Part shown: positions 1 through 14,856 of the stretch, piece after piece
How the letters are laid out: every line of letters begins with the position of its first letter
Position numbering within the stretch: position 1 is the first letter of the stretch
Origin: Gemmatimonadota bacterium
GTDB taxonomy: Bacteria > Gemmatimonadota > Gemmatimonadetes > Longimicrobiales > Gaopeijiaceae
Reading direction: 5' to 3'
Assembly (NCBI GenBank): GCA_022823365.1
Contig: JAJDXG010000002.1
Location: 1 to 64,000 of the forward strand
Length of the DNA: 64,000 bases
The notes under the pieces: model-generated
Database searches by the model: none
Told to the model about the DNA's origin: nothing
Seen by the model: only the letters and a program-made list of their open reading frames with translations
Program-made: the position numbers and the translations under genes

Positions 1-3000
1 AACCGAGGCGGCGCCCGCGCCGGAGAACCAGGCCATGTAGGGATGCACGCTGGCCATGGTGGTGCCGTAGGTGCCCCGCACCGGACTGGCGCCGGTCTTG
101 TCGGTGAAGTCGAAGCTGCCCGACGAGTACGAGCCCGCGACACCCGCCAGGATGTCGGGTCCCACGCGCGCGTCGATGCCGGCGTGGGCGCTCACCATGT
201 TGCCCTTCCAGTCGAGGGCGCTCTGGCCGGGCTCGCCGAGGTGGTGGTACTCGCCCGCGCCCCAGCTCGCCAACTGCGTGCCGGTCGCGGACTGCTGCTG
301 CGCGGAGGGAGCGCCGAAGGGCATCGTAAAGGAGGTGCCGCCGAAGAGGGCGGCCAGGCCGGCCTGGTCGCCCTGGGCGAGGCCGAGGCTCCCCGCGTCC
401 GGCGCGGACAGGCTCGCCGCCATGGATGAGAGCCCGTTCGTCTCCACGCGCCGCTCCATGCCCATCCCGCTGGCCACCGCATCAACGCGGCGCGCGATGG
501 CCGAGACGGTGCTCGACGTCATCGTCGCGGCCACGTGCGGAAGAACCTGGGTGTTCAGCCGTCCCGCGCGCTGCACGGGGTCGTCCGTCGCGGCCGATGC
601 GCTCGCCGACGGTGCGCCGGTGCCCGCCCGGTTGATCGCCGAGACGCGGTAGTGGCGCATGCTCCCCGGCAGCAGCTCGGTGTGCGAGAAGGCGGTGACC
701 GCGGACTCCGTGTTGGTCACCAGATCCGCCCAAGCAGCCCCGGTCTCCGAGACCTCGATGCGGTAGCCGGTGATGGGGGCTCCGCCATTGTAGGCGGGCG
801 CAACCCAGAACAGGTCGATCTGGGTGGGCGTGACATCGTTGGCCACCAGCCCGGTGGGCGCGTCGGGCACGGTGGCGTCGGTCGTGGAGCCCGCGACCCG
901 CGACGCGTTGCCCACGCCGATCCGGTTGATCGCCGAGACGCGGTAGTGGCGCGTCGATGCCGGCGCGAGCCCGCTGTGCGTGTAGACGGTGGCCGTGGTG
1001 CGCGTGTTGGCCACCAGGTCCTCCCAACTCCTGCCCCCGTCGGCCGAAACTTCGATGCGGTAGCCGGTGATGCGCGCGCCCCCGTCGTCCGAGGGCACCT
1101 GCCAGGAGAGAGCGATCTGCGAGGTGCCGGACGCCTCGGCGGTGAGACGTCGCGTCACGCCCGGCTCGGTCGCGTCGGTGGTCGCCCGCGCCGTGTTCGA
1201 CCACAGTCCGACCCCCGCGAGGTTGATCGCGGCGACCCGGTAGTGCCGCGTGGTGGCGGGCCGGAGGTTCACGTCGGAGAACGTCGTCGTCCTCGCGTTC
1301 GTGTTGCGGCGGATGATGTTCCAGGTCGCGCCCCCGTCGTCGGAGGCCTCGATGCGGTAGCCGATGATCGAGACGCCGCCCGTGTAGCGGGGCGCGTTCC
1401 ACGCCAGGTCGATGCGCGCCGTGCCCACCGCCCGGGCCGTCAGCCCGGTCGGGACCCCGGCAAAGTCGGCGTGCGTAATGGCCGCTACCGGGGGCAACGG
1501 GGGCAACGGCGAGAACTCCCCTCGGCCCACGCGGTTGATGGCCGCGACCCGGTACCGGTACCGGGTCACCGGCTCCAGTCCGGTGTCCGTGAACGTGGTT
1601 GCCCTCGTTCCCGTGTTGGAACGGTGGGTGATCCAGTCGTTGTCGTTCGGCCCGATCCTCTGGATGGCGTAGCCGGTGACGCGCTCCCCTCCGTCGGTCT
1701 CCGGCGCATCCCAGGCGAGGAGGATGCTGTTCGGTCCGATCGCGCGCGCACGCACGCTCCGCGGCGGCCCGGGAGGCGCCGCGGTGGTGATCGCGTTGCC
1801 CACGTTGGATGCCGGTCCCGCCCCCTGGCTGTTGACCGCGGACACGCGATAGAACCAGGTGGTCGCGGGTTTGAGGCGGGTGTCGAGGTAGGTGGTGGTC
1901 GTGCCGTTGGTGCTGGCCACCAGGATGATCCAGCCCGAGTTGCCGTTGGAGGACCTCTCGATGCGGTATCCGGTGATCGGGCTCCCGCCGTCGTCGCCCG
2001 GGGGCGTCCACGTGAGCAGGAGCTGGCCGCTTCCCCTCACGCCGCTCGGGGTCACCCTGAGCCCCGTGGGCCGGCCCGGAACCGAGGTGTCGGTGGTCCC
2101 CCGGACGACGTCCGACCAGGGTCCCGTGCCCGCCCGGTTGATCGCGGCGACCCGGTAGTAGCGGACGGCGCCGGGGCTCAGGCCGGTGGTGTGGCTGTAC
2201 CCGGTGACTCCGGGGCGCGCGCTGGCCTCGAGCACCACCCATCCGCCGGTTCCGGTGCGGGACACCTGGATGCGGTAACCCGTGATCGCGCTTCCGCCGT
2301 CGGAGGCGGGCGCGGTCCAGGTCAGGCCGATGGTGGTCGCCCCCCGGGCCCGGGCCGTGAGCCGCCGCGGGGCGCCCGGCAGGAGCGCCGCCGTCGTGGC
2401 GCTGTCGACGTTGGAGGGCTCTCCCACCCCATTGGGGTTGATCGCGTGTACCCTGTAGTGGCGGGTGACGCCGGCCGCGAGGCCGGTGTGCGTGTAGGTG
2501 GTTCGCGTGCTCCGGGTGTTTGCCTCCAGGTCCGACCAGATGGTGCCGCCGTCCTTCGACACCTGGATCCAGTACCCGGTGATGTCGGAGCCGCCGTCCT
2601 CTTCCGGCTCGTCCCACACCAGCTTGATGCTCGTGGGCCCTTCGGCGGTCGCTTCCAAGTCCCGCGGCGCACCGGGGACCTCGGCCCCCTCCCGGGTCAG
2701 GTTCCGGATTGAGCGCCTGCTGAAGCCCGGCACGCGATTGCCGATGTCGTCCCGGGCCGCGTTGGCGCCGGTGTTGGTGTAGAACAGTTCGACCACGTCG
2801 TCGGCGAGGACGGGCTCGGCCAGGGTCAGGATCATCTGGTTCTCGGCCACCTCGACCTGGGACACCGCTTTCGTACGGTACACCGCGTCCCGGATGAAGG
2901 ACACGGAGAAGCTGGCGGGCTCCGGAACGAAGTCCTCGTCCAGATTCTCGTCGAGGACCAGCACCAGTTCCCTGCCGTTGATTCTGTCGGTGACGATGCG

Positions 3001-3465
3001 CGGCGGCTTGTTGTCGACCCTGAAGGTGAGCGTCCTGGGGAGGTTGCCCTCGCCGTCCGAGTTCACGGCCACGCCCTGAGGGATGATGACGATCACCGAA
3101 CCCACCCAGTTCGCGTTGGTGTTGAGCATGAGCGTATAGCTCCGGCCGCTCGCGCTCGCGCTCAGCGAAACCTTCCGCGCGCCCGTGACCTGGATGTCGC
3201 CGATCTCGAACCCGGTCACGCTCTCCGAGAAGCGGATGTTGATGCGCCACTCCTCGTGCACGGTCCCGGTTCGGTCTTCCCTCAGCGTCGTGATCCTGGG
3301 GGCCGCGGCCGCCGCGGCGCGCTCCGCGACCGGGCGGCCCGCTTCGTCCCAGGCGTCCGAAAAGGGTTCCTGGGCGGCCGCACCCGCGGAGAAGGCCAGG
3401 GAAGCGGACGTCACAGCCGCCGCAAAGAAGGAACGAACCAGTGTCCTAGGCATGTTCGCGATCAT
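1..3465 (-). CDS. Large secreted fibronectin type III repeat protein with autotransporter-like C-terminus (3' end outside window)
   Basis: At least 1155 residues, still open at the window edge. An N-terminal signal peptide (MIANMPRTLVRSFFAAAV... to AGAAAQ) indicates export. Residues about 55-250 form Ig-like/SwmB-like beta domains. Seven fibronectin III domains follow (about 263-955), each with a conserved ITGYRI-type strand and an HYRV.AIN.xG strand. After a linker, the last 150 residues (LASWGAGEYHHLG, then alternating amphipathic strands with AGIDARVG and DILAGVAGSYS) resemble the start of an autotransporter-type outer-membrane barrel. The start is ATG 3465 with AGAGG upstream; ATG 3453 is an alternative. 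The likely role is surface adhesion or display; the ligand is unknown. The other two frames are also open because of the high GC content, but only this frame gives recognisable domains. Confidence 0.85.
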   Translation of the reverse strand, partial: MIANMPRTLVRSFFAAAVTSASLAFSAGAAAQEPFSDAWDEAGRPVAERAAAAAAPRITTLREDRTGTVHEEWRINIRFSESVTGFEIGDIQVTGARKVSLSASASGRSYTLMLNTNANWVGSVIVIIPQGVAVNSDGEGNLPRTLTFRVDNKPPRIVTDRINGRELVLVLDENLDEDFVPEPASFSVSFIRDAVYRTKAVSQVEVAENQMILTLAEPVLADDVVELFYTNTGANAARDDIGNRVPGFSRRSIRNLTREGAEVPGAPRDLEATAEGPTSIKLVWDEPEEDGGSDITGYWIQVSKDGGTIWSDLEANTRSTRTTYTHTGLAAGVTRHYRVHAINPNGVGEPSNVDSATTAALLPGAPRRLTARARGATTIGLTWTAPASDGGSAITGYRIQVSRTGTGGWVVLEASARPGVTGYSHTTGLSPGAVRYYRVAAINRAGTGPWSDVVRGTTDTSVPGRPTGLRVTPSGVRGSGQLLLTWTPPGDDGGSPITGYRIERSSNGNSGWIILVASTNGTTTTYLDTRLKPATTWFYRVSAVNSQGAGPASNVGNAITTAAPPGPPRSVRARAIGPNSILLAWDAPETDGGERVTGYAIQRIGPNDNDWITHRSNTGTRATTFTDTGLEPVTRYRYRVAAINRVGRGEFSPLPPLPPVAAITHADFAGVPTGLTARAVGTARIDLAWNAPRYTGGVSIIGYRIEASDDGGATWNIIRRNTNARTTTFSDVNLRPATTRHYRVAAINLAGVGLWSNTARATTDATEPGVTRRLTAEASGTSQIALSWQVPSDDGGARITGYRIEVSADGGRSWEDLVANTRTTATVYTHSGLAPASTRHYRVSAINRIGVGNASRVAGSTTDATVPDAPTGLVANDVTPTQIDLFWVAPAYNGGAPITGYRIEVSETGAAWADLVTNTESAVTAFSHTELLPGSMRHYRVSAINRAGTGAPSASASAATDDPVQRAGRLNTQVLPHVAATMTSSTVSAIARRVDAVASGMGMERRVETNGLSSMAASLSAPDAGSLGLAQGDQAGLAALFGGTSFTMPFGAPSAQQQSATGTQLASWGAGEYHHLGEPGQSALDWKGNMVSAHAGIDARVGPDILAGVAGSYSSGSFDFTDKTGASPVRGTYGTTMASVHPYMAWFSGAGAASV

Positions 3466-3527
3466 CGTGCTGCCTCTGGGTGGGAGTAAACGCAGAGATG
3501 AAAGAGCATCCGGCTACGAGACGAGCT

Positions 3528-3613
3528 TCACCCCCCGCCCGGGGATCCCGAACGGGGGGTGAGCCGTCCCGCGACCATCAGCCTGGCTAGTGGCGAGTCA
3601 GCCAGACTGATGG
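3528..3613 (-). terminator. Two tandem hairpins between the two giant surface-protein genes
   Basis: A perfect 10-bp inverted repeat (TCACCCCCCG at 3528-3537 with CGGGGGGTGA at 3553-3562) lies beside a 14-bp inverted repeat with one mismatch (3575-3588 with 3600-3613, 11-nt loop). They fill the 160-bp gap between the stop of the upstream minus-strand gene (3627) and the start of the fn3 gene (3465). No U-tract follows on the minus strand, so this may be a rho-independent-like terminator, an attenuator or an mRNA-stabilising structure. Confidence 0.45.
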
Positions 3614-3626
3614 TGTTGAAGGTTGA

Positions 3627-6600
3627 TCAGCTGCCGGAAGTCCTCGCAGCGAGGCTGGCTGCCGCGGAGCGCTTCCACTTCGGCCCGTCATCCGTCGTAT
3701 CGGCGGTACCCTGCACCGACTCGACCGCAATGCTGATGGCCGCTGCGAGCTCCTCTTCGGTGACGGCCCCGGTGCCACCCGTGCCGCTGGGGATGGCTAT
3801 GCTTGCCGATGCAATGCCGCCGGTGATATCCGCTGAGACGGTCGCCCTGTCGGTGGCACCGACAGTGGCCTGCAGCACCACCCACACTGTGCCACCAAAG
3901 GCGGCGGCATCAACTTGGGCGACGACCCGGAAGTCGGAGTTGGTATTCGTGACGGCGGTCCAGCTGGCCTGGATGAAGTTGCCGCTGGTACTCGCCTCGT
4001 CTGAGTCTGACGCCGCCTGACGCCTCGCGGTCACGCCGCTGGCCGACGGATCGATCGCGCCAACGTCGTCCCGACCGCTCGATATCACGATGGGCGGATT
4101 GTTGGTCGCATCGGTGGCGTGCGCAGCCGTGGCTACGACCCAAACCTTGAACGCGCCATCGCCGCCATCGCCAATGGCCGGGGTAGTGAACGATTCCGTC
4201 CACGTACCCGCATCGTCCCCCGTGCCTTCTGTGGGGGTACCACCGGTCGCCGTGGAATCAGCTGTCCCGGCGTCGTGGTAGACGGCGTAAGTTGCATCGC
4301 TGTACCCATCAGGCACATCCGTAGGATCGCCCGTGAAGGTGACCGAGATGGTAGTGCCCCATTGCTGCTTGGACTCGTCCACATCCGTGGTGGCCGCGTC
4401 GTCTTCAACACGGTCACGCATCGCGCTGACGCTCAGAGCCCCTGCCGTCGTGGCCTGGATGGTACCCATGTCAACGGTCTGACCCGGGGCGGTGTTCACC
4501 AGCCCGTTCGGGTGTGCAGTCGGGTATGTGAAGTTGTGGCCGGCCATCGTCGCTGCGACCGTGTAGGTACCGAACGGTACGCTGAGCGAGAAGCTGCCCG
4601 TCCTGCCCGTGGTGGCCGTAGCAGAGTGCCCGTCCGTCCTCGTCGCCGTGATCGTGACGCCACTGAGCGGTCCGCCGCCCGGCGCCGCCACCTTGCCTCT
4701 GATCCTGGCGTGCAGGAAGCCGGTGAAGTCGAAGCCCGAAACGGCCGATCCGGGGTGTGCGGGAACACGATCGATTTGACCGGGCACGAAGCTCATGCCG
4801 CTCTTGGTCACGCGAATCGATACCGATCCGCCCAGACCCTGAGCCTCCACCTCTATCGAGTAGGTTCCGTCGGAACCCGTCTTGTAGGTGTCGTTGGCAG
4901 CGAGGTCGTCATTCGATTTCGCGTTCGGGTTGGTCGGCGCTACCCATCCGTCGCCGTAGTCGACTTCGACGAGCGCGCCCGCAATCGGAGCGGCACTGCC
5001 GGAAGCCCTGACCGTGCCGGCGACCGTGGCGAACTCGCCGACGGACGTAAGGTCGATGTCCCATTCGAACGGGACGTTCGGGTTCGGGTTGTATGCTGCG
5101 CCGTCCTGGATCGTGTCCATTACCGGGTTCTGCCCCTCGCGGGCAGTCGACACCATGTACCCCCGGACTCTCTCATCGTCGTCGTTGTAGTACCAGACGC
5201 GGTCGATGCCCTTGATGATGTAGCGGCCCGCCTCGTCGGTCACGTCCGACTGACCGTTCACGGTCACGGTCACGTCGGCGACGGCAAAGTCGTCCGCGCC
5301 GGTGACGTGGCCGTAGAAGGTGTGCGTCGACGGCCTGATCTCGATGTTGACATCGCCCCCGATTGGGTCGACAGTGCTCCGAGCACCGTCGTCGTCGGTT
5401 ACGCTGGCCCCCCATCCGCTCGGATCAACGACGCTGTAGGCACCGGCCGCCACGTCCTCGAACATGAACTCACTTTGTTCGTTGAGGTCGGTGTCGGTGT
5501 CGTCGTCCTCGGCGGTGGTGAAGGAGACTCTCTCGCCCCCGAAGTTCTCGCCTGCTTTCGGGACCAGGCTGACCGTGAAGTCTTCGACGAAAGAGGGATC
5601 GTCGGCAGGATCGACCTCGAAGTCGTCGCCGTTTCTCTCCTTCTTGACGTCGCGCATCGACACGTCACCGGTCACGGTGTACAGGTTGACAATGGCGAAC
5701 GACGAGCAGCTGTCGTAGTTCTGCGGGTTCTTTTCCTGCAGCGGACAGAGCGAAACCCTGGAGCTGAAGCCACCCTGGGCGCCGAAGGCGCCGCCGTCGA
5801 CACCATTGGCGTCGAGGTTCTGGAACGTGTCCAGCGCATCGTTATGCGGGTCCTTGTCCAGGACCATGTAGCTCGCCCCGTCCTTCACTCTCGCGGATAC
5901 GAAGATGTCCTTGTCCGCCGGCAGGTGTTTGAAGACCACGAGACGAGAAGTGCTGCGGTGGCCCATGATGAGGGTATCGCCGTTGGGACGCGAGACGGTC
6001 ACGTCACTGCTGTACTGGGTGTTCAGATCGGCGTCCCACTCGTCGGATTCGAACGAATGATCCCGTCCGCCTTCCTGGTACTCGACTTCGAGTTCGACTG
6101 GAGCGGACCCGGGGTTCATGTTGACGCCGCCGTCGCCGGCCTGGATGTTGCCGGTGAAGCCGAAGACTTGGTCGCGCTCGTTGTGCAGGAAGACCCTGAG
6201 AGTCTGGGTCGTGTAGCGCACCTCGATGGGATCGAGGTCCACGGAGCCGGCCAGCGCGAGACCGGTGTGCGTGTACTCGGCGGCGTTCCCCTCGAAGCTC
6301 TCGCCGCCGTCCAGGCTGTTGCTCTGGTCGTTGGCGACGTCGAAGGAGTAGCTCACCGGCAGGTCGGTCGCCGCGACGGTGGCCGTGAAGGAGGCCATGC
6401 CGGCGGTGTCCAGTTCCGCGGGCGCGCCCGCGACCGCCTCACCGCCCGAGGTGACGCTGAGCGCCCAGCCGCCGAGCGCGTCGCCGCCGCCGTAATCGGT
6501 GGTGATCGTGGCGCCGCTGACGTTCACGTCGACGTTCAGGTTGACGATGTCGTTGTCGTTGGCACCCGCAGTCGCGAACATCTGCGGATCCCAGGACACC

Positions 6601-8093
6601 TCGGTCATGCCATCGGCCACGTCATAGCCTTCGGCGGCGACGCCCGCCATCACCATGTTCCCGCTGGTGCCGGCGCGCGCGACCTTGATCGACACGGAGC
6701 CGTCGTCGCCGGTGTCGTCGCTGCCGACCCTGGCGTCGTTCGCCCCGTAGAGCGTGACGGTCGCACCCGGAAGCGCGGCGCCCATGTCGTCGCCGTGCTT
6801 CAGCGACACCGTGAAGTTGACCGTCGTGTGCGTAATGTCGAACGGAATCGACTGCGAAGCGGCCTCGCCGACTCCGAGAGCGATCTCGTAGCCGTTCCCC
6901 GGTCCGCCGTACGCCACATCGTTGGCCGCGAGTGCCGCCGCGACCGTAGCGTCGATGAGCACGACCAACTGGTACGGGCCGGAGCGCAGGCCCGTGAACG
7001 AGAAGGCGCCGGTGTCGTCGGTCGCGCCCACCCGTTGCTCGTTCACGCCCGGGCCCACCAGCGCCACCGGAATGCCGGCGTGCGCCAGCGGAGCCTCGCC
7101 CTCGTCGAACATGTCGTTCTTGGTCGCCTCGTCGAGGAACACCATCCCCGAGACGCTCGCCGTGGTGGCGTGCGCGCCCTCGAAGTTCACGATCTTCGAC
7201 TCGTCGTCGCCCAGCGTCACGTCCTCGCTCATCGAGTCGAACACGTAGGCGTCGCTGTCGACCGCGATCGAGACCGTGTAGTCGCCGGCCGCCAGGCCCG
7301 CGAAGGAATACTGTCCGCCCGCGTCGGTCATCGCGGTGCGGCTCTCATCGCCGCTCGCAAGCGTGACCTCGATCTCGCCGAGGCCCATGCCCTCGACGCT
7401 CACCCGGCCGCTGATGCCGGAAGTCCGGAGCAGGACACCGGTGAACGACACCGTGCCGGTCTCGTCCAGATCCACGCTCACGTCCTGCGATGTGGATGCG
7501 AACTCGTAGTCGCGGGTGTCGAAGTCGGAGATGCTGACCGTGTAGTCGCCGGGGCGCAGGTCCTCGAACCGGTACATGCCGTCGGCGTCGGTCAGCATGG
7601 TGTAGCTTTCGTCGGCGGGACCGCCGACCAGGACCACCGTAACGCCCGCAAGGCCCTCGCCTTCGATGACCACCTGGCCCTCGACCGCTGATGTGCGGAT
7701 GAAGTGGCCCGTGAAGTCGGCCTGACCGACCTCACCCACCTCGACCTCGATCTCGAGGCTCACCGTTTCGAACGACACATCCTCCGGATAGTCGCTGATG
7801 GTGACGGTGTAGGTGCCGGCCCGAAGCCCGGTGAACGCGAAGCCGCCGTCCTCGGCGGTCTCCATGGTCTCGCCCATGGCGTGCTCGCCGCCGAGCGTGA
7901 CCGTCACGCCGACCAGCGTCTCGGGCTGGCCGTCGCCGCCGCTCATCATCGCGTCGGCCGCAACCACGTTGCCGACCACCGCGGAGGACCGGATATACTC
8001 ACCGGCACTCTGGTCCTCATAACACGCTAAATTACAGCAGGATACGATTACAAATGCTGGGACGTTATCATATTGTTTACCTGCATTTTTCAC
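3627..8093 (-). CDS. Giant Ig-like/CNA-B and carboxypeptidase-regulatory-like repeat protein, 5'-truncated
   Basis: 1488 codons of tandem beta-sandwich domains. Early repeats share an (I/L)RTSxxxGxV opening, a GVTVxL strand, a D.xG.Y.F..L turn and an xGxYTVSI end (about residues 35-310). An SdrD-B-like unit follows (DEATKNDMFDEGEAPLAHAG), then several more regulatory-like units. No signal peptide is present: the first 30 residues (MKNAGKQYDNVPAFV...) look unlike the rest and come from AT-richer sequence. The first repeat begins at AGEYIRSSAV, which aligns with the junction TGHFIRTSAV between later repeats, so the chain starts mid-protein. The upstream neighbour is an integrase. The likely history is a longer surface protein that lost its 5' end to an insertion or rearrangement near position 8020. 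Whether it is still expressed is doubtful. Confidence 0.75.
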   Translation of the reverse strand: MKNAGKQYDNVPAFVIVSCCNLACYEDQSAGEYIRSSAVVGNVVAADAMMSGGDGQPETLVGVTVTLGGEHAMGETMETAEDGGFAFTGLRAGTYTVTISDYPEDVSFETVSLEIEVEVGEVGQADFTGHFIRTSAVEGQVVIEGEGLAGVTVVLVGGPADESYTMLTDADGMYRFEDLRPGDYTVSISDFDTRDYEFASTSQDVSVDLDETGTVSFTGVLLRTSGISGRVSVEGMGLGEIEVTLASGDESRTAMTDAGGQYSFAGLAAGDYTVSIAVDSDAYVFDSMSEDVTLGDDESKIVNFEGAHATTASVSGMVFLDEATKNDMFDEGEAPLAHAGIPVALVGPGVNEQRVGATDDTGAFSFTGLRSGPYQLVVLIDATVAAALAANDVAYGGPGNGYEIALGVGEAASQSIPFDITHTTVNFTVSLKHGDDMGAALPGATVTLYGANDARVGSDDTGDDGSVSIKVARAGTSGNMVMAGVAAEGYDVADGMTEVSWDPQMFATAGANDNDIVNLNVDVNVSGATITTDYGGGDALGGWALSVTSGGEAVAGAPAELDTAGMASFTATVAATDLPVSYSFDVANDQSNSLDGGESFEGNAAEYTHTGLALAGSVDLDPIEVRYTTQTLRVFLHNERDQVFGFTGNIQAGDGGVNMNPGSAPVELEVEYQEGGRDHSFESDEWDADLNTQYSSDVTVSRPNGDTLIMGHRSTSRLVVFKHLPADKDIFVSARVKDGASYMVLDKDPHNDALDTFQNLDANGVDGGAFGAQGGFSSRVSLCPLQEKNPQNYDSCSSFAIVNLYTVTGDVSMRDVKKERNGDDFEVDPADDPSFVEDFTVSLVPKAGENFGGERVSFTTAEDDDTDTDLNEQSEFMFEDVAAGAYSVVDPSGWGASVTDDDGARSTVDPIGGDVNIEIRPSTHTFYGHVTGADDFAVADVTVTVNGQSDVTDEAGRYIIKGIDRVWYYNDDDERVRGYMVSTAREGQNPVMDTIQDGAAYNPNPNVPFEWDIDLTSVGEFATVAGTVRASGSAAPIAGALVEVDYGDGWVAPTNPNAKSNDDLAANDTYKTGSDGTYSIEVEAQGLGGSVSIRVTKSGMSFVPGQIDRVPAHPGSAVSGFDFTGFLHARIRGKVAAPGGGPLSGVTITATRTDGHSATATTGRTGSFSLSVPFGTYTVAATMAGHNFTYPTAHPNGLVNTAPGQTVDMGTIQATTAGALSVSAMRDRVEDDAATTDVDESKQQWGTTISVTFTGDPTDVPDGYSDATYAVYHDAGTADSTATGGTPTEGTGDDAGTWTESFTTPAIGDGGDGAFKVWVVATAAHATDATNNPPIVISSGRDDVGAIDPSASGVTARRQAASDSDEASTSGNFIQASWTAVTNTNSDFRVVAQVDAAAFGGTVWVVLQATVGATDRATVSADITGGIASASIAIPSGTGGTGAVTEEELAAAISIAVESVQGTADTTDDGPKWKRSAAASLAARTSGS

Positions 8094-8147
8094 CGCTCGT
8101 CGGACTGGGGAAGCTCACACGGCGCCCCGCCCCGGCGCCCCAGGCTG

Positions 8148-9308
8148 TCAACCGGGTTGACGTACGTAGTTCCCCCATTCCTCCATCACGTCTCGCCTCC
8201 GCTTGAGGAGGTCGGTTCGCAAGTACGCCCCCTCGACGCCCTTGACGGTATGTGCGAGCGCCGACTCCGCCACTTCGCGGGGTACGCCGCACTCGGCGCA
8301 CCAATCGCGGAACGACGAACGGAAGCCGTGCGGCACGGCTGGAATGTCGAGTCGTCGGCAAAGCAGAGGGAATGTGTTGCCGCTCAGCTCTCGGCCCGCC
8401 GCAGACGGAAACACCCACGCGGATCCGACGGAGCAACGGCGTGCCTCGGCGAGTATTTCGAAGGCACGTGAAGACAACGGCACGCGATGCTCTCGTCCCG
8501 TCTTCATGCGCTCGCCAGGCACGGTCCATGTGGCGGTCTCGATGTCGATCTCCGCCCACTGCGCCCCCCGAACCTCACCCGATCTGGTCGCGGTCAGAAC
8601 GAGGAACTCGAACGCCAGCTTCGTCACGGGTCGTGACGTGCTCGCACGTACTCTTGCCAGCGCCTGCGCGACTTGAGCATACGGCAGTGAGCGATGGTGG
8701 ACCGTGCGAAAACCGTTCTTGGGGAGCGCGGTGGCTATGGCGTCGCCAGCCGGATTCCCTTCCCTGTACTCTCTCGCTACCGCCCACCTCATCACCGCCG
8801 AGATCCTATTGCGCACGCGCTTCGCCGTCACCCGCTTCTCATTCCAGATCGGTAGCAGGATGGCCATCACGTCCGTAGTCGTGATCTTGTCCACCGTCTT
8901 GTGTCCGATCTTCGGGTAGACGTATGCGCGCAGGCTGCTCCTCCACTGCTGCTCGGTGTCACCGCCCGGCTTCCAGTTCGCCTTGTGGATCGCAATCACC
9001 TTCTCGGCGGCTCGCGCAAATGTCGGAATGCCGCCGTTCCTCGGGTCGATCCCGCGTGCCAATGCTCGGCGGTGTTCCAGAGCCTTCGCCCTCGCCTCCT
9101 TCAAGCTCACGACCGGATAGGCTCCCAAACCGAGGTTAACGGCGTTGCCGTTAATGTAGAGGCGTTGCGCCCATGTCCTGCTGATCCGACCGGTTGATGT
9201 GGGCTTAACCAGCAGCGACAGCCCGTAGCCACCGCGTCCATCCCCGTATCGGCCCGGGCGCCGGATTCTCTTGACGAAACTCGCGTTCAGCTTCGAGGGT
9301 CGCTTCAT
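8148..9308 (-). CDS. Tyrosine-type site-specific integrase (P4-like)
   Basis: 386 residues, the usual length for P4/prophage-type integrases. The N-terminus has the DUF4102-like arm-binding region (GYGLSLLVKP, then LGLGAYPVVSLKEAR), followed by a SAM-like core-binding domain (about 95-190) and the catalytic domain. The catalytic residues are all visible: Arg242 (TATRSGEVR), Lys269, His327 and Arg330 (HGFRSSFRDW), His353 (LAHTV) and Tyr362 (GAYLR). It is expected to integrate or excise a genomic island. The C-terminal end faces the truncated surface-protein gene 55 bp away, where an element boundary would be expected. The start is ATG 9308. No excisionase is seen beside it. Confidence 0.93.
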   Translation of the reverse strand: MKRPSKLNASFVKRIRRPGRYGDGRGGYGLSLLVKPTSTGRISRTWAQRLYINGNAVNLGLGAYPVVSLKEARAKALEHRRALARGIDPRNGGIPTFARAAEKVIAIHKANWKPGGDTEQQWRSSLRAYVYPKIGHKTVDKITTTDVMAILLPIWNEKRVTAKRVRNRISAVMRWAVAREYREGNPAGDAIATALPKNGFRTVHHRSLPYAQVAQALARVRASTSRPVTKLAFEFLVLTATRSGEVRGAQWAEIDIETATWTVPGERMKTGREHRVPLSSRAFEILAEARRCSVGSAWVFPSAAGRELSGNTFPLLCRRLDIPAVPHGFRSSFRDWCAECGVPREVAESALAHTVKGVEGAYLRTDLLKRRRDVMEEWGNYVRQPG

Positions 9309-9964
9309 CGTGTATCCTACCCGTTATCACGTTGACGGGATTGCACCACTCGGGACAAACGGCTTCCCGAGACGACTCAGTGAGGTACCGGGTGCTGGAG
9401 GACAGGACGACCGGGAAGGAACGTAAGGGCTCCAACGAAGCACGTGGACGGGCGATACGATACCGAGGTCGGTCGGGAAGCCTCCGGCGTCGCAAGGGTA
9501 GTCGCGGGAATCGGATGTCGTGAGGCATGGGTTGTGTTCGCCCAGCGCGCGAGTTGGTTGGTTGTTTCCGATGGGCGCGATCTGGCGGGTGCGCTCGCGC
9601 TCGCCTTCTACCGCTGGGCGGCGCGCTCTGCCGGTGTGACCCGGGCGGCGCCCATCACGGTGCGATACTCAGACCATAGGCTATGTCATAAAGTGCTTTG
9701 GCCCATGATGTTATATTAGTGCACGGTCGCCGCCGATCACTCCTGCGATCACCCTTTCAGCACCGGGTAGCGTCACCTCCACCGGCGCAGGCGCGGCCTG
9801 CCGCTTTTCTCGACCGTCCCGTGGAGCCTCGCTCATCCCACGGCGTCTCGTGACCGCGCGGGCTCGACGGGGGCGGCAGTCCAGGATTTCGCAGAGGCCG
9901 CGCCATGCAAGTTATCCTTAACGAGCTACCGGACTGGACCACACTTCACGGCGAGGACAAGAGG
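9309..9964. other. Stretch without a recognisable gene, upstream of the integrase
   Basis: Short open frames exist on both strands but none has a recognisable domain, a good ribosome-binding site or a neighbour that supports it. It contains a small AT-rich patch (9680-9720) with the palindrome CATAGGCTATG, which could hold a promoter. It probably consists of island debris plus the integrase promoter. Confidence 0.4.
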
Positions 9965-10206
9965 ATGACCGACGCCGATCTCGTCAAGCAGGGCCGCCGA
10001 TATGGTCGGACCGCGAGTCGCCAAGAGGGACTGCGGGCTGGTGGCAGAAGCTTTCCTCGACGCCGTGAAGGACCCTGGTGCGCGGCGACCACATTGAGAT
10101 CCGCGGCTTCGGCACCTTCAAGGTGCGGCAACGCAAGGCTCGCAATCCCAGAACGGGCGAGGCGGTCGGTTCCACTGCGCGATCCAGGAACTCGGTGCCG
10201 CTTTGA
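9965..10206 (+). pseudogene. HU/IHF-family DNA-binding protein, broken by two frameshifts
   Basis: Three frames read in turn give one HU protein. The start MTDADLVKQ is in frame with ATG 9965. After about 9992 the match moves frame (AADMVGPRVAKRDCGL, then [11 protein letters not shown]). After about 10075 it moves again ([31 protein letters not shown]), ending at TGA 10204-10206. The RGFGTFKVR and RNPRTGE signatures are the conserved beta-arm of HU/IHF. Two independent frame breaks in 240 bp make this a pseudogene. A divergent intact family member is found at 14560. Confidence 0.8.
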
Positions 10207-10904
10207 CCAAGTGCATCCCACCGGGTTGGGTTGGGTCGCGTAGTCGAAGCCGATCCCCGTGGCAATGGGAACGGAGAACGTTCCACCTCGATCTCCCATT
10301 CGACATCCGGAGCGAGGGGCCACTCCGCGATGCCTTCCGCCACGACCTCGCCGTCCCGCTTCAGGCGCACCAGCACATGAGCGGTGCCGGACTCGGGCAC
10401 GTCAAAGGGATCGAGGCAGCGAGCCCAACCGATCCTGACAGTCCGGGACATTTCCGTGCCGATTGACGACCGAGCCGGCTGATCGGATCGGGATGTTCCA
10501 TCGACGGACATAAACGCGTCGGGAAGGCCCGGTGTCCGTCGCGAACGGGAACCCGGGAAGCTATCGAAAGCCCGGGAGTCTAAGAAGGTGGAGATCCCGC
10601 GAGCGAATCCAGGAAGACCCGATGCTCATGCGGAGTAGCAATCGCCACGGATCCCGAACGAAATCAATACTGTGAAGCTGGGGCCGCGCTCCAGCTTCCT
10701 TCGGCCTTCTCCGGCAAGACGTGGGCGAGTCGGTGGGGAACATCGGCGACCCATGCAGTGGCCTCGCCCGTCGCTGGTTTGCCGCCCGGGTGGCGATCAT
10801 CCCGGGTACGATGCCACATCGGTGCGTGACCGCCGTTAGATTGGTAGCCCGCGCGACCGCACGCGAGCGCGTCTTCAACCAACACAGAGAGAAGGAGCAG
10901 CGCC
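10207..10904. other. Region with no firmly supported gene; possible minus-strand coding remnant
   Basis: A minus-strand frame from about 10451 down to 10250 reads like real protein (SRTVRIGWARCLDPFDVP, then HVLVRLKRDGEVVAEGIAEW) but matches no family I recognise. It runs into the HU pseudogene, so it is probably a truncated gene. The rest (10512-10904) shows nothing beyond the ribosome-binding site of the dehydrogenase gene. Confidence 0.3.
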
Positions 10905-11723
10905 TTGGGCAAGATCATACTCGTCACGGGAGCCTCGTCCGGCATGGGCCGGGAGGCCGCGATCCTCCTGGCCAGCGGCGGACATACCGTCTACGCTGGC
11001 GCGCGCCGGGCGGACCGCATGGCCGACCTGTCCGAACACGGCATCACCCCAGTCGAGATGGATGTCTCGAAGGGCAGGGACAACGAGCGAGCCGTCGGTC
11101 GGATCATCGACGCCGAGGGACGGATCGACGTCCTGATCAACAACGCGGGCTTCGGCCTCTACGGCACCGTCGAGGACATCCCGCTCGACGACGCAAGATA
11201 CCAGTTCGAGGTCAACCTGTTCGGCCTCGCCCACCTCACCCAACTCGTCCTGCCGCACATGCGGGCGCAGGGCGGGGGCCGGATCGTCAACACCTCCTCG
11301 ATGGGCGGCCGGATCTTCACGCCCTTCGGGGCTTGGTACCACGCGACCAAGCACGCGCTCGAAGGCTGGTCGGACTGCCTGCGCATCGAGACCGCGCCCT
11401 TCAACATCCAGGTCGTCCTCATCCAGCCGGGCCTCATCCAAACGGAGTTCGGCCACGTGGTGGGCGGGAGCCTTCAGAAGTACTACGCCGACAGCGCCTA
11501 CAAGACCGGGCTGGACCGGTTCTTCGCGATGGCGTCCGATCCAAAGGCCGCCAGCCGCGGCACCGACGCCAAGGTTCTCGCCCGGGTGTTCGTCGAGGCG
11601 GCGACCGCAGCCAAGCCGCGACGGCGGTACGTGAAGGGCGCGACAGCGCGCCCGCTGATGTTCATCCGCAAGTGGTTCGGCGACGGGATCTACGAATCCG
11701 TGCTGCGCCGCACCTTCGGATGA
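10905..11723 (+). CDS. Short-chain dehydrogenase/reductase (SDR)
   Basis: 272 residues, typical of classical SDR enzymes, which use NAD(P)(H) to oxidise or reduce alcohols and ketones in the cytoplasm. The cofactor motif TGASSGMG is at residues 8-15, NNAG at 79-82, the catalytic serine in NTSSMGG near 131, and YHATK gives Tyr145 and Lys149. The PGLIQTEFG stretch is the usual post-catalytic segment. The TTG start at 10905 is chosen because it sits just after AGAAGGAG and preserves the first beta strand (KIILVTGAS). It lies alone inside the island, between an HU pseudogene and an integrase fragment. The substrate cannot be told. Confidence 0.9.
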   Translation: MGKIILVTGASSGMGREAAILLASGGHTVYAGARRADRMADLSEHGITPVEMDVSKGRDNERAVGRIIDAEGRIDVLINNAGFGLYGTVEDIPLDDARYQFEVNLFGLAHLTQLVLPHMRAQGGGRIVNTSSMGGRIFTPFGAWYHATKHALEGWSDCLRIETAPFNIQVVLIQPGLIQTEFGHVVGGSLQKYYADSAYKTGLDRFFAMASDPKAASRGTDAKVLARVFVEAATAAKPRRRYVKGATARPLMFIRKWFGDGIYESVLRRTFG

Positions 11724-11748
11724 GGGACCGGCCCCGCAGAGTACCGGC

Positions 11749-12354
11749 TTGGGCGGATCCGTCTCGATGTTCAGCATCAGGATAGCCGGGGCCGGCGCCC
11801 TGCCGCATGCCGAGGTCGGGGCGGCGCTTGAGGCGGTCCGCGAGTCGGATGCGTGGCTGGGCATCCGGCTGTGTCTGGAGTTCGTGGCCCTGACGGCGAC
11901 GAGGAGCGGCGAGGCGCGCCGGGCGCGCTGGCCGGAGATCGACCGGGACCGCGCGACATGGACGGTGCCCGCGGAGCGCATGAAGGGCGGTCGCGAGCAT
12001 CGGGTGCCCCTGTCGACGGGCGTGCTGGCGGTGCTGGAGCGGGCGCAAGAGCTCGAGAACGGATCGGGGTTGATCTTCCCCAGCTTCAAGGGGCTGGAGC
12101 CGCGGAGCCCTCAGGTGGCCGGAGTGTTTCGGGACCTCGGCATCCCGAGCACGGTGCACGGGCTGCGGAGCTCGTTCCGCGACTGGGCCGCGGAGACGGG
12201 CGTGGACCGCACGGTCGCCGAGGCGGCGCTGGCGCACAAGGTCGGCGGGGTCGAGGGCGTGTACTTCAGGAGCGACCTTTTCGAGCGCAGGCGCCGAGTC
12301 ATGCAGGACTGGTCGGCCTATCTCTCGGGCCGGAGAGCGGGCACCGAGACCTGA
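11749..12354 (+). pseudogene. Tyrosine integrase fragment: catalytic domain only
   Basis: 201 residues whose last ~185 match the catalytic half of the integrase at 8148-9308 (LPHAEVGAAL against LPYAQVAQAL; TATRSGEARRARW; HGLRSSFRDW; GVEGVYFRSDLFERRR). Arg52, His137, Arg140, His163 and Tyr172 are all kept. The arm-binding and core-binding domains are missing: similarity stops near residue 17, about 75 bp after the dehydrogenase gene. It is most likely the remnant of a second integrase cut by the rearrangement that brought in the SDR gene. It is too divergent to be a simple duplication of the first integrase. Confidence 0.8.
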
Positions 12355-12621
12355 TCCAGACCTGCGGCCGGGCCAGGAGCCGATTTCCGGGCGTTCCGGC
12401 CTCCATGGGCGACGAGAGAGGCCGCAGGAGCGGTTCGGCGACCTAGAAACACACTATGTCACCACGCTACAACGACTTGACCCCTCCGCGGGCCGCCGAA
12501 CTTCGGTCTAGGGTGTGGGACCAAGATTGCAGGGGCGTTTGCGCGCGGGCAGCTTGGGGGGATTGTTTACCAGTCCGAGGGAGAGAGAATAGGGGGACGA
12601 GGATAAGGAGAGGTTAGAACC

Positions 12622-13410
12622 ATGCTAAAGGTCCACCTCAGTATCATGGGTGTTGTGGTCGGCTGCCTGAGCGTGTTCACCTGGGTCGCCAACGCAATTC
12701 CGCAGATCCAGTCGGATGTGCCCGAGGACCTGGTGTTGTCGGACGAAGTCACTCCCGAGGAGCTCATCGCGGCGGGCGAGGACCTGTACAATGGCGGAGG
12801 CGGCTGCACGGCGTGTCATGGCCTCGGAGAGCGCGCCCCGAATCTGCTCACCGATCACGCGGGAACCGGGCTGATCGGCGAGCGTTGCGCAAACCGTGTT
12901 GCAGGGCAGGACTGCAAGCAGTACCTGCATGCGTCGCTGGTCGACCCCAACGCCTATCTGGTGGAAGGGTTTGCGCCCATCATGCTGGACGCGAGCCGCA
13001 CCCTTTCCTCCGTACAGATCTGGGCGCTGATAGCCTACCTGCAGTCCTTGGGAGGGGAGGTCACGGTGAGGGGAGCGGATTTCGAGGAGAGCGGCGGAGG
13101 AGGCGGGGTCGCACCTCTGGCCGGGGATGCGCGCGCGACCACCGACCCGCAGCACCTGATGGCGCTGAATGGTTGCACAGCCTGCCACTTGCCCGCCGCT
13201 ATGGAACTCCCCGTTCGGCTAGCGCCGCCCTTCGACGGGATCGGATCGCGCATGACGACCGAGGAAATACGTGCGGAGATCTTAGATCCGAACGCCGTCA
13301 CCACCGAAGGATATGAAGCTTTTGGAGGAACCATGCCAACCTACTTCGGAGAGAGGCTCACTGCGGCGGAACTCGAGGCAATCGTTAGATTTCTCGCTTC
13401 GCTGCGATGA
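12622..13410 (+). CDS. Diheme cytochrome c, periplasmic or membrane-anchored
   Basis: 262 residues with an N-terminal hydrophobic segment (about 5-25) serving as a signal or anchor. Two CTACH haem-binding motifs (62-66 and 185-189) sit in two cytochrome-c folds joined by a Gly-rich linker (158-163). The probable axial methionines are in GFAPIML and GGTMPTYFG. Cys89 and Cys98 form an extra pair not needed for haem binding. AAGGAGAGG lies 8 nt before the ATG. It should carry electrons in the periplasm; donor and acceptor are unknown. It lies within the island, with no respiratory genes directly beside it; the molybdoenzyme operon starts 1.5 kb downstream. Confidence 0.9.
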   Translation: MLKVHLSIMGVVVGCLSVFTWVANAIPQIQSDVPEDLVLSDEVTPEELIAAGEDLYNGGGGCTACHGLGERAPNLLTDHAGTGLIGERCANRVAGQDCKQYLHASLVDPNAYLVEGFAPIMLDASRTLSSVQIWALIAYLQSLGGEVTVRGADFEESGGGGGVAPLAGDARATTDPQHLMALNGCTACHLPAAMELPVRLAPPFDGIGSRMTTEEIRAEILDPNAVTTEGYEAFGGTMPTYFGERLTAAELEAIVRFLASLR

Positions 13411-13494
13411 ACGACGCGTTCCCGTCGTACGCTTGAACTCCAGCGTCTCGGATTCGCGTCCGGTGGCCAACGCCAGAGTTTTCTCAAGCACCAT
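13405..13494 (-). pseudogene. Remnant of an AlbA_2/Schlafen-type ATP-binding protein N-terminus
   Basis: From ATG 13494 the frame gives about 30 residues including GRESETLEFKRTTG. This matches the conserved opening motif (ESxxxEFK) of AlbA_2-domain proteins. The similarity stops where the convergent cytochrome c gene ends (13410), so only the first ~30 codons of a normally 400-500-residue protein survive. Confidence 0.5.
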
Positions 13495-13601
13495 AGGCGA
13501 ATCTCTAACGCGGGCCTCGCTCCGTGTGACGCCTCAACCATCCGCTTCCATCTAGAGAACAGTAACTTCTCCGAGCGCTGATGGATGAGCGCGGGCTTGA
13601 C

Positions 13602-13823
13602 TTACCTGAACCGAATACGGGGACTTCCCGGATTGATCGGGACGTCGCCGGCGCTTAGCATTCTGCGGGCTGCGGCGTAGATTGCCGTTGCATCCATCCT
13701 GCCCACCCTGGGCAGGATAAGCGCTCTGAGCTCATCCGTCGAAGCGCCCTGTATGGCGTGCAGTTCGTCCATCAGCTTTGCCTGCCCATCGGCCCGCCGC
13801 ACAATTTTCCGTGCGATTGACAC
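13602..13823 (-). CDS. Small unassigned protein
   Basis: 73 codons from GTG 13823. The composition is protein-like (SIARKIVRRADGQAKLMDEL, then DELRALILPRVGRMDATAIY), with predicted helices and none of the Arg/Pro/Ser excess of the surrounding false frames. I recognise no family. It could be a real small island gene or the end of a degraded one. The start is uncertain, with no strong ribosome-binding site. Confidence 0.35.
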   Translation of the reverse strand: MSIARKIVRRADGQAKLMDELHAIQGASTDELRALILPRVGRMDATAIYAAARRMLSAGDVPINPGSPRIRFR

Positions 13824-14178
13824 CCAACGAAGCGGCTCGTGAACTTCTACTACCTGGGTGAACGTGGGTACGCCGGTTCTGATTTGCTTACCGGTTCTCG
13901 GGGCCGACAGGTCGTTTCCCGCAAACGGGGGCTCCCGCGGCTAGGACGTGGTGTCGAGAAGATGCCCCTTCCCGCCGGTCGGGGCCTCAAGTATTTGGTG
14001 CCGCTCCCCTCAATGCCCCCGGACGCCCCTGCTGTCCGGCGCGCCGTCACCCTGCGTGCAAACGGGGCCGAGGGATCTCGACCGCTCCCTTGCCGCGAAT
14101 CCCTGGGCGAGTGGGTTGCCTCCCGGCGTCAAGATGTGAGCCAGGCGCGGCGTGCCGCCGTCCGCGTCCCCGAAGGGT

Positions 14179-14231
14179 GGACGGGGTGTGCGTGTTGCGG
14201 CAGTGCCCTGTCGGCACGCGACACCCCGTCC
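14179..14231. repeat. Long GC-rich hairpin (inverted repeat)
   Basis: GGACGGGGTGTGCGTG at 14179-14194 pairs with CACGCGACACCCCGTCC at 14215-14231: 16 base pairs with a single bulged base and a 20-nt loop. It is not followed by a T-tract and is not near the end of a gene. It could be the stem of a structured RNA, a mobile-element end or part of a recombination site. Confidence 0.6.
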
Positions 14232-14399
14232 CAGGGGACTCGAACAGTGAACAGTCAAATACGTGTCCTTTGTTGCGATTCTCCGGCTTTTTCGGTACGG
14301 TGGAATCTGACTTGAGGTCTCGGCAAAAAGAGCAGATCGTGCAGTCCTAGTTGAACTTATACGATTTTTTGCCTTGGATTCCATGGCCCTTTGGGGACA

Positions 14400-14441
14400 C
14401 TTACAAGCAGGAGGTCGGCGGTTCGAATCCGTCAGCGCCCA
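14400..14441 (+). tRNA. 3' half of a tRNA-Val(TAC) gene; att-like fragment
   Basis: From the anticodon loop onward the tRNA is perfect: loop CTTACAA (anticodon TAC, valine), 3' anticodon strand GCAGG, variable loop AGGTC, T-arm GGCGG-TTCGAAT-CCGTC, acceptor strand AGCGCCC and discriminator A. The 5' half is absent: the sequence before 14400 neither pairs with GCAGG nor contains GGGCGCT, the partner of the acceptor strand. Anticodon-loop-to-3'-end is the segment that integrative elements commonly duplicate on insertion, so this is best read as a displaced tRNA end (attR-like) at the right border of the island. It is not a functional tRNA gene. Confidence 0.75.
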
Positions 14442-14559: not shown

Positions 14560-14856
14560 ATGAACAAGAAGGAAATGGCGGCCGCTCTCGCGCAGCAGGC
14601 CAACCTCTCCCAGGCGAAGGCAGCGGACGTGCTCAACTGCATCTTCGACACAAGCGCCGGATCGGGCATCATCGCCGGCGAACTCGACGCGGGCGGCAAG
14701 GTGACGCTCCCCGGGTTCGGCAGCTTCGGCGTCAAGTCGCGCGCCGCGCGCACCGGGACCAACCCGGCCACCGGCGAAAAGATCACCATCGCGGCGAAGA
14801 AGTACGCGTTTTTCAAGCCCGGCAAGCCGTTGCGGGACCGGGTAGCAGGGGGATAG
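14560..14856 (+). CDS. HU/IHF-family DNA-binding protein
   Basis: 98 residues, the standard HU length. The N-terminal helices (MNKKEMAAALAQQANLSQAK) lead into the conserved LPGFGSFGVK turn and the TNPATGEKITI beta-arm, ending in KKYAFFKPGKPLRDRV. It should bind and bend DNA as a dimer. The start at ATG 14560 has GGAG 5 nt upstream. The beta-arm has TNPATGE instead of the usual RNPRTGE, and its middle (FDTSAGSGIIAGELDAGGK) is slightly longer than the norm. It is unlike the broken HU gene at 9965, so the two are not recent copies. Confidence 0.93.
   Translation: MNKKEMAAALAQQANLSQAKAADVLNCIFDTSAGSGIIAGELDAGGKVTLPGFGSFGVKSRAARTGTNPATGEKITIAAKKYAFFKPGKPLRDRVAGG

Follow-up and report, generated by a model that had tools for sequence, protein, structure and literature searches.

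An orphan tRNA-Val half in the Candidatus Palauibacter lineage points to a family of integrating elements that probably captures tRNA genes from both sides

In a 64 000-nucleotide stretch of DNA (the window) from the Candidatus Palauibacter lineage of the Gemmatimonadota, the 42-mer at 14400–14441 on the forward strand is a perfect 3′ half of tRNA-Val(TAC), running from the anticodon loop to the discriminator base. It consists of the 7-nt anticodon loop CTTACAA, the 3′ strand of the anticodon stem, the variable region, the T arm, the 3′ acceptor strand and the discriminator A. Why half a tRNA gene should stand alone here is the question we address. The original prediction described a half that was perfect over this span, had lost its 5′ part and was the probable scar of an integration event. 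The description is borne out: ARAGORN finds no tRNA genes in the 64-kb window, and the Rfam tRNA model scores 14395–14441 at 20 bits, below its threshold of 29. The D and anticodon arms are missing from that match, and no 5′ half lies nearby. The features discussed here are collected in table 1.

Table 1. Features of the window that bear on the orphan tRNA-Val half; C14 and C28 are other contigs of the same genome.
Feature	Position	Strand	Basis
Element side of the junction, probably composite	1..14399	.	G002:C235 has the flanks without this stretch
Another tyrosine integrase (Phage_int_M, Arm-DNA-bind_3), distant from the C14 integrase	8148..9308	-	
Fragment frame, tyrosine integrase C-terminal catalytic domain	11749..12354	+	PF00589 at 1.6e-16
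Cytochrome c family protein, element side	12622..13410	+	PF00034, PF13442
Conserved right-end module of the element family, with inverted outer arms; likely arm-type integrase site TTGAACTTA	14278..14376	+	C28 module match, alignment A1, fold, motif counts
Orphan 3′ half of tRNA-Val(TAC), very probably the host's displaced original, at attR	14400..14441	+	Same 42-mer in intact tRNA-Val of four congeners
Interval predicted to contain the crossover, with the same sequence in attL, attR and attB; anticodon loop (14400-14406) at its start	14400..14417	+	
T arm with host allele; differs from the element allele at 14418, 14419, 14431 and 14432	14418..14432	+	Comparison with the C14 tRNA
Gene for an HU-family DNA-binding protein, in the host flank beyond tRNA-Val	14560..14856	+	PF00216; flank conserved at unoccupied sites

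Within its own genome (G000) the 42-mer occurs only once at up to three mismatches, and the reversed control not at all. The nearest complete gene is a tRNA-Val(TAC) at G000:C14:44056-44130, found by similarity, with a 3′ half identical to the orphan at 38 of 42 bases; no intact tRNA in the genome contains the exact 42-mer. The expectation that the genome would hold a tRNA-Val(TAC) sharing the 42 bp therefore stood for the complete gene but not for an exact copy. The absence of a tRNA-Val with the same 3′ half had been named as evidence against a scar; such a gene is indeed absent, yet an exact match was too much to ask for, since two base pairs past the crossover are not shared by attP and attB. 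The partner end had also been expected outside the window, unless deleted, and outside is where it was found: the complete tRNA-Val on C14 is followed by a gene for a 388-aa tyrosine integrase.

We compared the locus across 11 genomes of the genus, G000 included, nearly all of which are metagenome-assembled genomes (MAGs). The 42-mer is kept in the congeners, either as an orphan or inside an intact gene, so its presence is not due to chance. Together with its downstream flank, which carries the HU gene, it is found in 10 of the 11; the remaining genome, G007, has a matching HU stretch without the tRNA-Val half, and an intact tRNA-Val on another contig. Four genomes (G002, G004, G008 and G010) have an intact tRNA-Val with the exact 42-mer followed by the same HU gene, and six (G000, G001, G003, G005, G006 and G009) have the orphan half at this flank. 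Homology between the window and the four intact-gene genomes starts exactly at 14400. Contig C235 of G002 runs continuously from the upstream flank of our C14 tRNA, through the tRNA, into the downstream flank of the window, which means that C14 and the window were neighbours before insertion. This contig represents an unoccupied site with its flanks joined; the 3′ side is also unoccupied in G004, G008 and G010, the term referring in G004 and G010 to the 3′ side only. In G001 a single contig has both ends, about 42.5 kb apart: tRNA-Val with an 84% identical integrase, and the orphan half. In our own draft genome the two element ends lie on different contigs.

These unoccupied sites, along with the intact tRNA-Val and integrase on C14, bear out the proposed attachment scar: the orphan half is almost certainly the host's own piece, displaced by an inserted mobile element. 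A decayed or duplicated tRNA fragment, that is, a pseudogene with no tie to integration, would likewise go unrecognised as a tRNA gene, and the half does differ from its genome's intact tRNA-Val at 4 of 42 positions; but the 42-mer matches perfectly the intact gene that four congeners have at this position, and the break falls at the anticodon loop with the right-end module of the element family upstream, so we regard a pseudogene as very improbable. Less probable still is an assembly or binning chimera, which the draft state of the MAG (63 contigs, with contigs ending in family repeats) might suggest, but which is contradicted by the same junction, preceded by the same 12 bases, in the separate assemblies of G003, G005 and G006. 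On G009:C80 (L078), 7.5 kb separates an orphan half on the reverse strand from a complete tRNA-Val with integrase on the forward strand; one insertion alone does not account for these opposed orientations, and an inversion or a misassembly would. At G001:C37:151425-151467 (L072) there is another orphan tRNA-Val 3′ half with a right-end module, and no complete tRNA was found in the surrounding 4.5 kb.

The original prediction went astray in treating the half as the element's copy. The intact tRNA-Val of four congeners has the exact 42-mer and the same downstream flank, and the complete tRNA-Val of our own genome has a different T-stem. The four positions at which orphan and working C14 tRNA differ make up two whole T-stem base pairs, and both versions are predicted to pair. 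The orphan's version is present in all four intact genes at the same place (G002, G004, G008 and G010), and it follows that the orphan represents the host's original half. The other version is found in the working tRNA-Val of G000, G003, G005 and G009; the working C14 tRNA thus carries the element's version of the 3′ half. The exchange is not universal, since the working tRNA-Val of G001 keeps the host T-stem despite an adjoining family integrase. With homology starting at 14400 and the first difference from the C14 tRNA at 14418, strand exchange would have taken place within the 18 bp from 14400 to 14417, with the loop (14400–14406) as the presumed usual 7-bp overlap.

With high confidence, then, 14399/14400 can be read as the right end (attR) of an integrated element that entered tRNA-Val(TAC). 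Entry would have been at the anticodon loop, by means of the 388-aa tyrosine recombinase now found beside the intact C14 tRNA, and the 3′ halves were exchanged, the working tRNA now having the element's T-stem and the orphan the host's. This integrase matches PF00589 and, weakly at sequence level, the structures of XerA and lambda integrase; it is 100% identical to one adjoining tRNA-Val in G003, where the twin lies 52 bp from the tRNA. The elements in G001 and G003 contain conjugation-type families (VirB8, TraG, VirB6/TrbL, CagX and T2SSE), suggesting that they may move by conjugation, and the element here is probably an integrative conjugative element or a derivative of one.

Our own copy is only partly assembled: C14 carries 1.7 kb of it and the window up to 14.4 kb. 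Positions 1–141 of the window are the end of contig C13, which joins C6 by these 141 bp; no overlap between C13 and C14 was found, and the internal DNA of the G003 element is absent from our assembly beyond the end of C14. The part in the window, with its integrases of other families and a cytochrome c gene, is probably composite and may comprise several elements. The integrase at 8148–9308 is 30% identical to the C14 integrase over 151 aa. Adjoining that gene is a 1488-aa frame (window 3627–8093) with repeated carboxypeptidase-regulatory-like and SdrD_B-like domains.

Matches to the right-end module number 3–33 per genome across the 11 genomes, with 14 in our own. Its outer arms are inverted, with paired changes at 7 of 13 predicted pairs. 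The inner motif TTGAACTTACG is present at the integrase end too: within two mismatches, it occurs in 54 of 79 left ends and 21 of 29 right ends (shuffled means 0.8 and 0.2, respectively). We infer that TTGAACTTACG marks the arm sites of the integrase, which would bind them at both ends of the element. In a separate observation covering loci L003, L004, L035 and L037, the last 119 bases of G000:C8, which start at the anticodon loop of an intact tRNA-Pro(TGG), recur in G000:C28 behind a right-end module, pointing to a sequenced population with both occupied and empty sites.

The C14 integrase family is very numerous in the genus. At E <= 1e-20 and with fragments included, the 11 genomes contain between 1 and 38 matches each (G000, 4; G001, 26; G002, 13; G003, 14; G004, 25; G005, 11; G006, 10; G007, 1; G008, 9; G009, 29; G010, 38). 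Fragments of family integrases sit at contig ends of G000:C3, C4 and C34, so our own count of four has probably been lowered by assembly breaks at repeats. Placement of the organism follows from its named relatives, which are mostly Gemmatimonadota MAGs, including Candidatus Palauibacter denitrificans, along with some records that carry other phylum labels.

We analysed the targets of the best 80 family loci in named genomes, a selection by similarity to one integrase rather than a census. The integrase lies at the 3′ side of a tRNA gene in 26 (Pro TGG, 11; Ile GAT, 10; Val TAC, 5) and at the 5′ side, reading into the tRNA, in nine (Arg CCT, 4; Ile GAT, 2; Leu CAA, Leu TAA and Val TAC, one each). 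The other 45, some with short flanks, are near no complete tRNA, although L160, L170 and L193 among them look like cut or partial tRNA cases. In most loci, on either side, the integrase frame is intact and ends before the tRNA. Right ends joined to an antisense 5′ half were found for tRNA-Arg(CCT) in G006:C281 and for tRNA-Ile in G008:C66. Members of the family appear to insert at the anticodon stem-loop in both directions, with the 3′ half displaced by some and the 5′ half by others; a few would have moved to other sites, several of them palindromic.

On a tree of the 80 integrases, with an arbitrary root, the labels 3′ side, 5′ side and none require at least seven changes, or three without the non-tRNA loci. 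The tRNA-Arg 5′-side clade (100/100) is sister to a Val/Ile 3′-side clade, with support of 99/95 at the fork. L185, in tRNA-Pro, sits next to L187, whose target is not a tRNA, and their terminal branches are 0.003 and 0.012 long; hence either the target changed recently or the ends recombined. Likeness to the tRNA-Pro 3′ half was assessed for the left ends of 36 of the 42 loci labelled non-tRNA in the tree (L180, L201, L227, L230, L231 and L236 were omitted). L187, L197, L202, L210, L217 and L225 gave 21–26 matches over 35 positions, equalled in 0–1 of 500 shuffles, and L233 gave 21 matches, equalled in two of 500. Many other left ends among the 36 were at chance level, which limits a tRNA-derived origin to a subset at most. 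In those first six loci the sites are non-tRNA and often palindromic, with the tRNA-Pro-like stretch at the same spacing; it is possible that these left ends reflect retargeting from a tRNA.

Both sides can be occupied at tRNA-Ile(GAT), for which G003:C7 is an empty site. Its upstream flank runs into orphan 5′ halves in G001, G002, G004, G008, G009 and G010, all six of which end in the anticodon loop, and its downstream flank continues from an orphan 3′ half in G004. In G001, G002 and G004, the one full tRNA-Ile recovered is flanked by two convergent integrases, and G004 has an orphan 5′ half, an orphan 3′ half and a working gene between convergent integrases, on three contigs. In G009 the 3′ side of the working tRNA-Ile is occupied by an integrase and its 5′ side by left-end-like sequence, and in G010 the contig ends at the tRNA. 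No full tRNA-Ile was found in G008, nor any tRNA-Ile match in our own genome or G006, all three probably being assembly gaps.

This arrangement could be the product of ordinary tandem insertion on one side combined with rearrangement: tRNA genes are known to accumulate tandem arrays (PMC4383910), and the three G004 pieces are on three contigs. We consider this unlikely, as one-sided tandem insertion leaves no 5′ orphan, whereas the orphan 5′ halves here retain the native upstream flank together with the D-loop allele seen at the empty G003 site, and in G004 the orphan 3′ half is still followed by the native downstream flank. That allele, CAGTTGG, is shared by all six orphan 5′ halves and the empty site, where CAGGTGG is absent; of the five genomes with both an orphan 5′ half and the working gene, CAGGTGG is common to the working genes of four (G001, G004, G009 and G010). 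The fifth, G002, has a third allele, CAGTCGG, also present in G005, whose 5′ side is native.

Although the pieces lie on different contigs, we favour capture of single-copy tRNA genes from both sides by one family as the likely explanation. On this sequence evidence, the only tRNA-Ile(GAT) of some genomes would consist wholly of element-borne halves, the native halves being orphaned and the native promoter left with the 5′ orphan, so that a mobile element would have to supply the transcription of an essential tRNA. Scans for promoters and terminators near tRNA-Ile returned nothing, whether the gene was double-flanked or at an empty site, and so give no information on the promoter driving the captured tRNA.

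At tRNA-Val, left-end-like sequence directly precedes the gene in G004, G009 and G010, with integrase-tail-like remnants visible by eye in G009 and less clearly in G010. Orphan tRNA-Val 5′ halves with their upstream sequence occur at G005:C201:1708-1758 (L289) and G006:C124:9403-9444 (L293), joined to an end without the module of the family, which indicates another kind of element on the 5′ side. Elsewhere in our genome, the 3′ part of a tRNA-Ala stands alone at G000:C7:35906-35937, and a complete tRNA-Ala(TGC) lies 3.7 kb away in the same orientation (39672 region); a 909-aa frame lies between the two pieces, with no recognised integrase among the listed frames (L006, L007 and L036).

The scar itself is ordinary, and 5′-side insertion is known but rare. 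Islands in the Islander collection likewise have a displaced fragment at one end and a rebuilt tRNA with a tyrosine integrase at the other; 3760 of 3919 have 3′ fragments and 159 have 5′ fragments, and an anticodon-centred crossover class is included (PMC4383910). What differs here is that one family, with up to 38 matches per genome, is found at both sides of the same tRNA gene, and that both halves of a working tRNA can be element-borne. Displacement of the 5′ half is reminiscent of the archaeal pTN3-type integrases (PMC8371274, PMC5495485), for which the rebuilt tRNA, parted from its own promoter, is said to be expressed from the integrase promoter; use of the 5′ half has been called rare in bacteria (PMC8371274). 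Integration of pTN3 disrupts its integrase gene, whereas here the frame ends before the tRNA, the host is bacterial and relatives from the same family occupy the 3′ side. The T-stem exchange resembles that of mycobacteriophage Boilgate, whose attP has a 43-bp core overlapping a tRNA 3′ half with five differences from the host, and where crossover before the first mismatch rebuilds a working tRNA (PMC10865867); unlike mycobacteriophages, the G001 and G003 elements carry conjugation-type genes. Limited literature searches, mainly of listings and abstracts, yielded no account of double-sided tRNA capture by one family, and the text of the Palauibacterales paper available to our word search (PMC10469786) contained none of the terms integrase, genomic island or tRNA.

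These observations suggest that closely related integrases exploit the symmetry of the anticodon stem-loop in either direction. They also suggest that elements replace host tRNA halves with versions that have diverged yet keep their base pairing, and that one tRNA gene can be captured from its two sides. Software that seeks only 3′ fragments would miss the 5′ captures. The many paralogues with identifiable targets (tRNA-Val, Ile, Pro, Arg and Leu, and non-tRNA sites) provide a data set for the study of target change in tyrosine integrases, in a genus where both halves of an essential tRNA seem, in some cells, to be borrowed.
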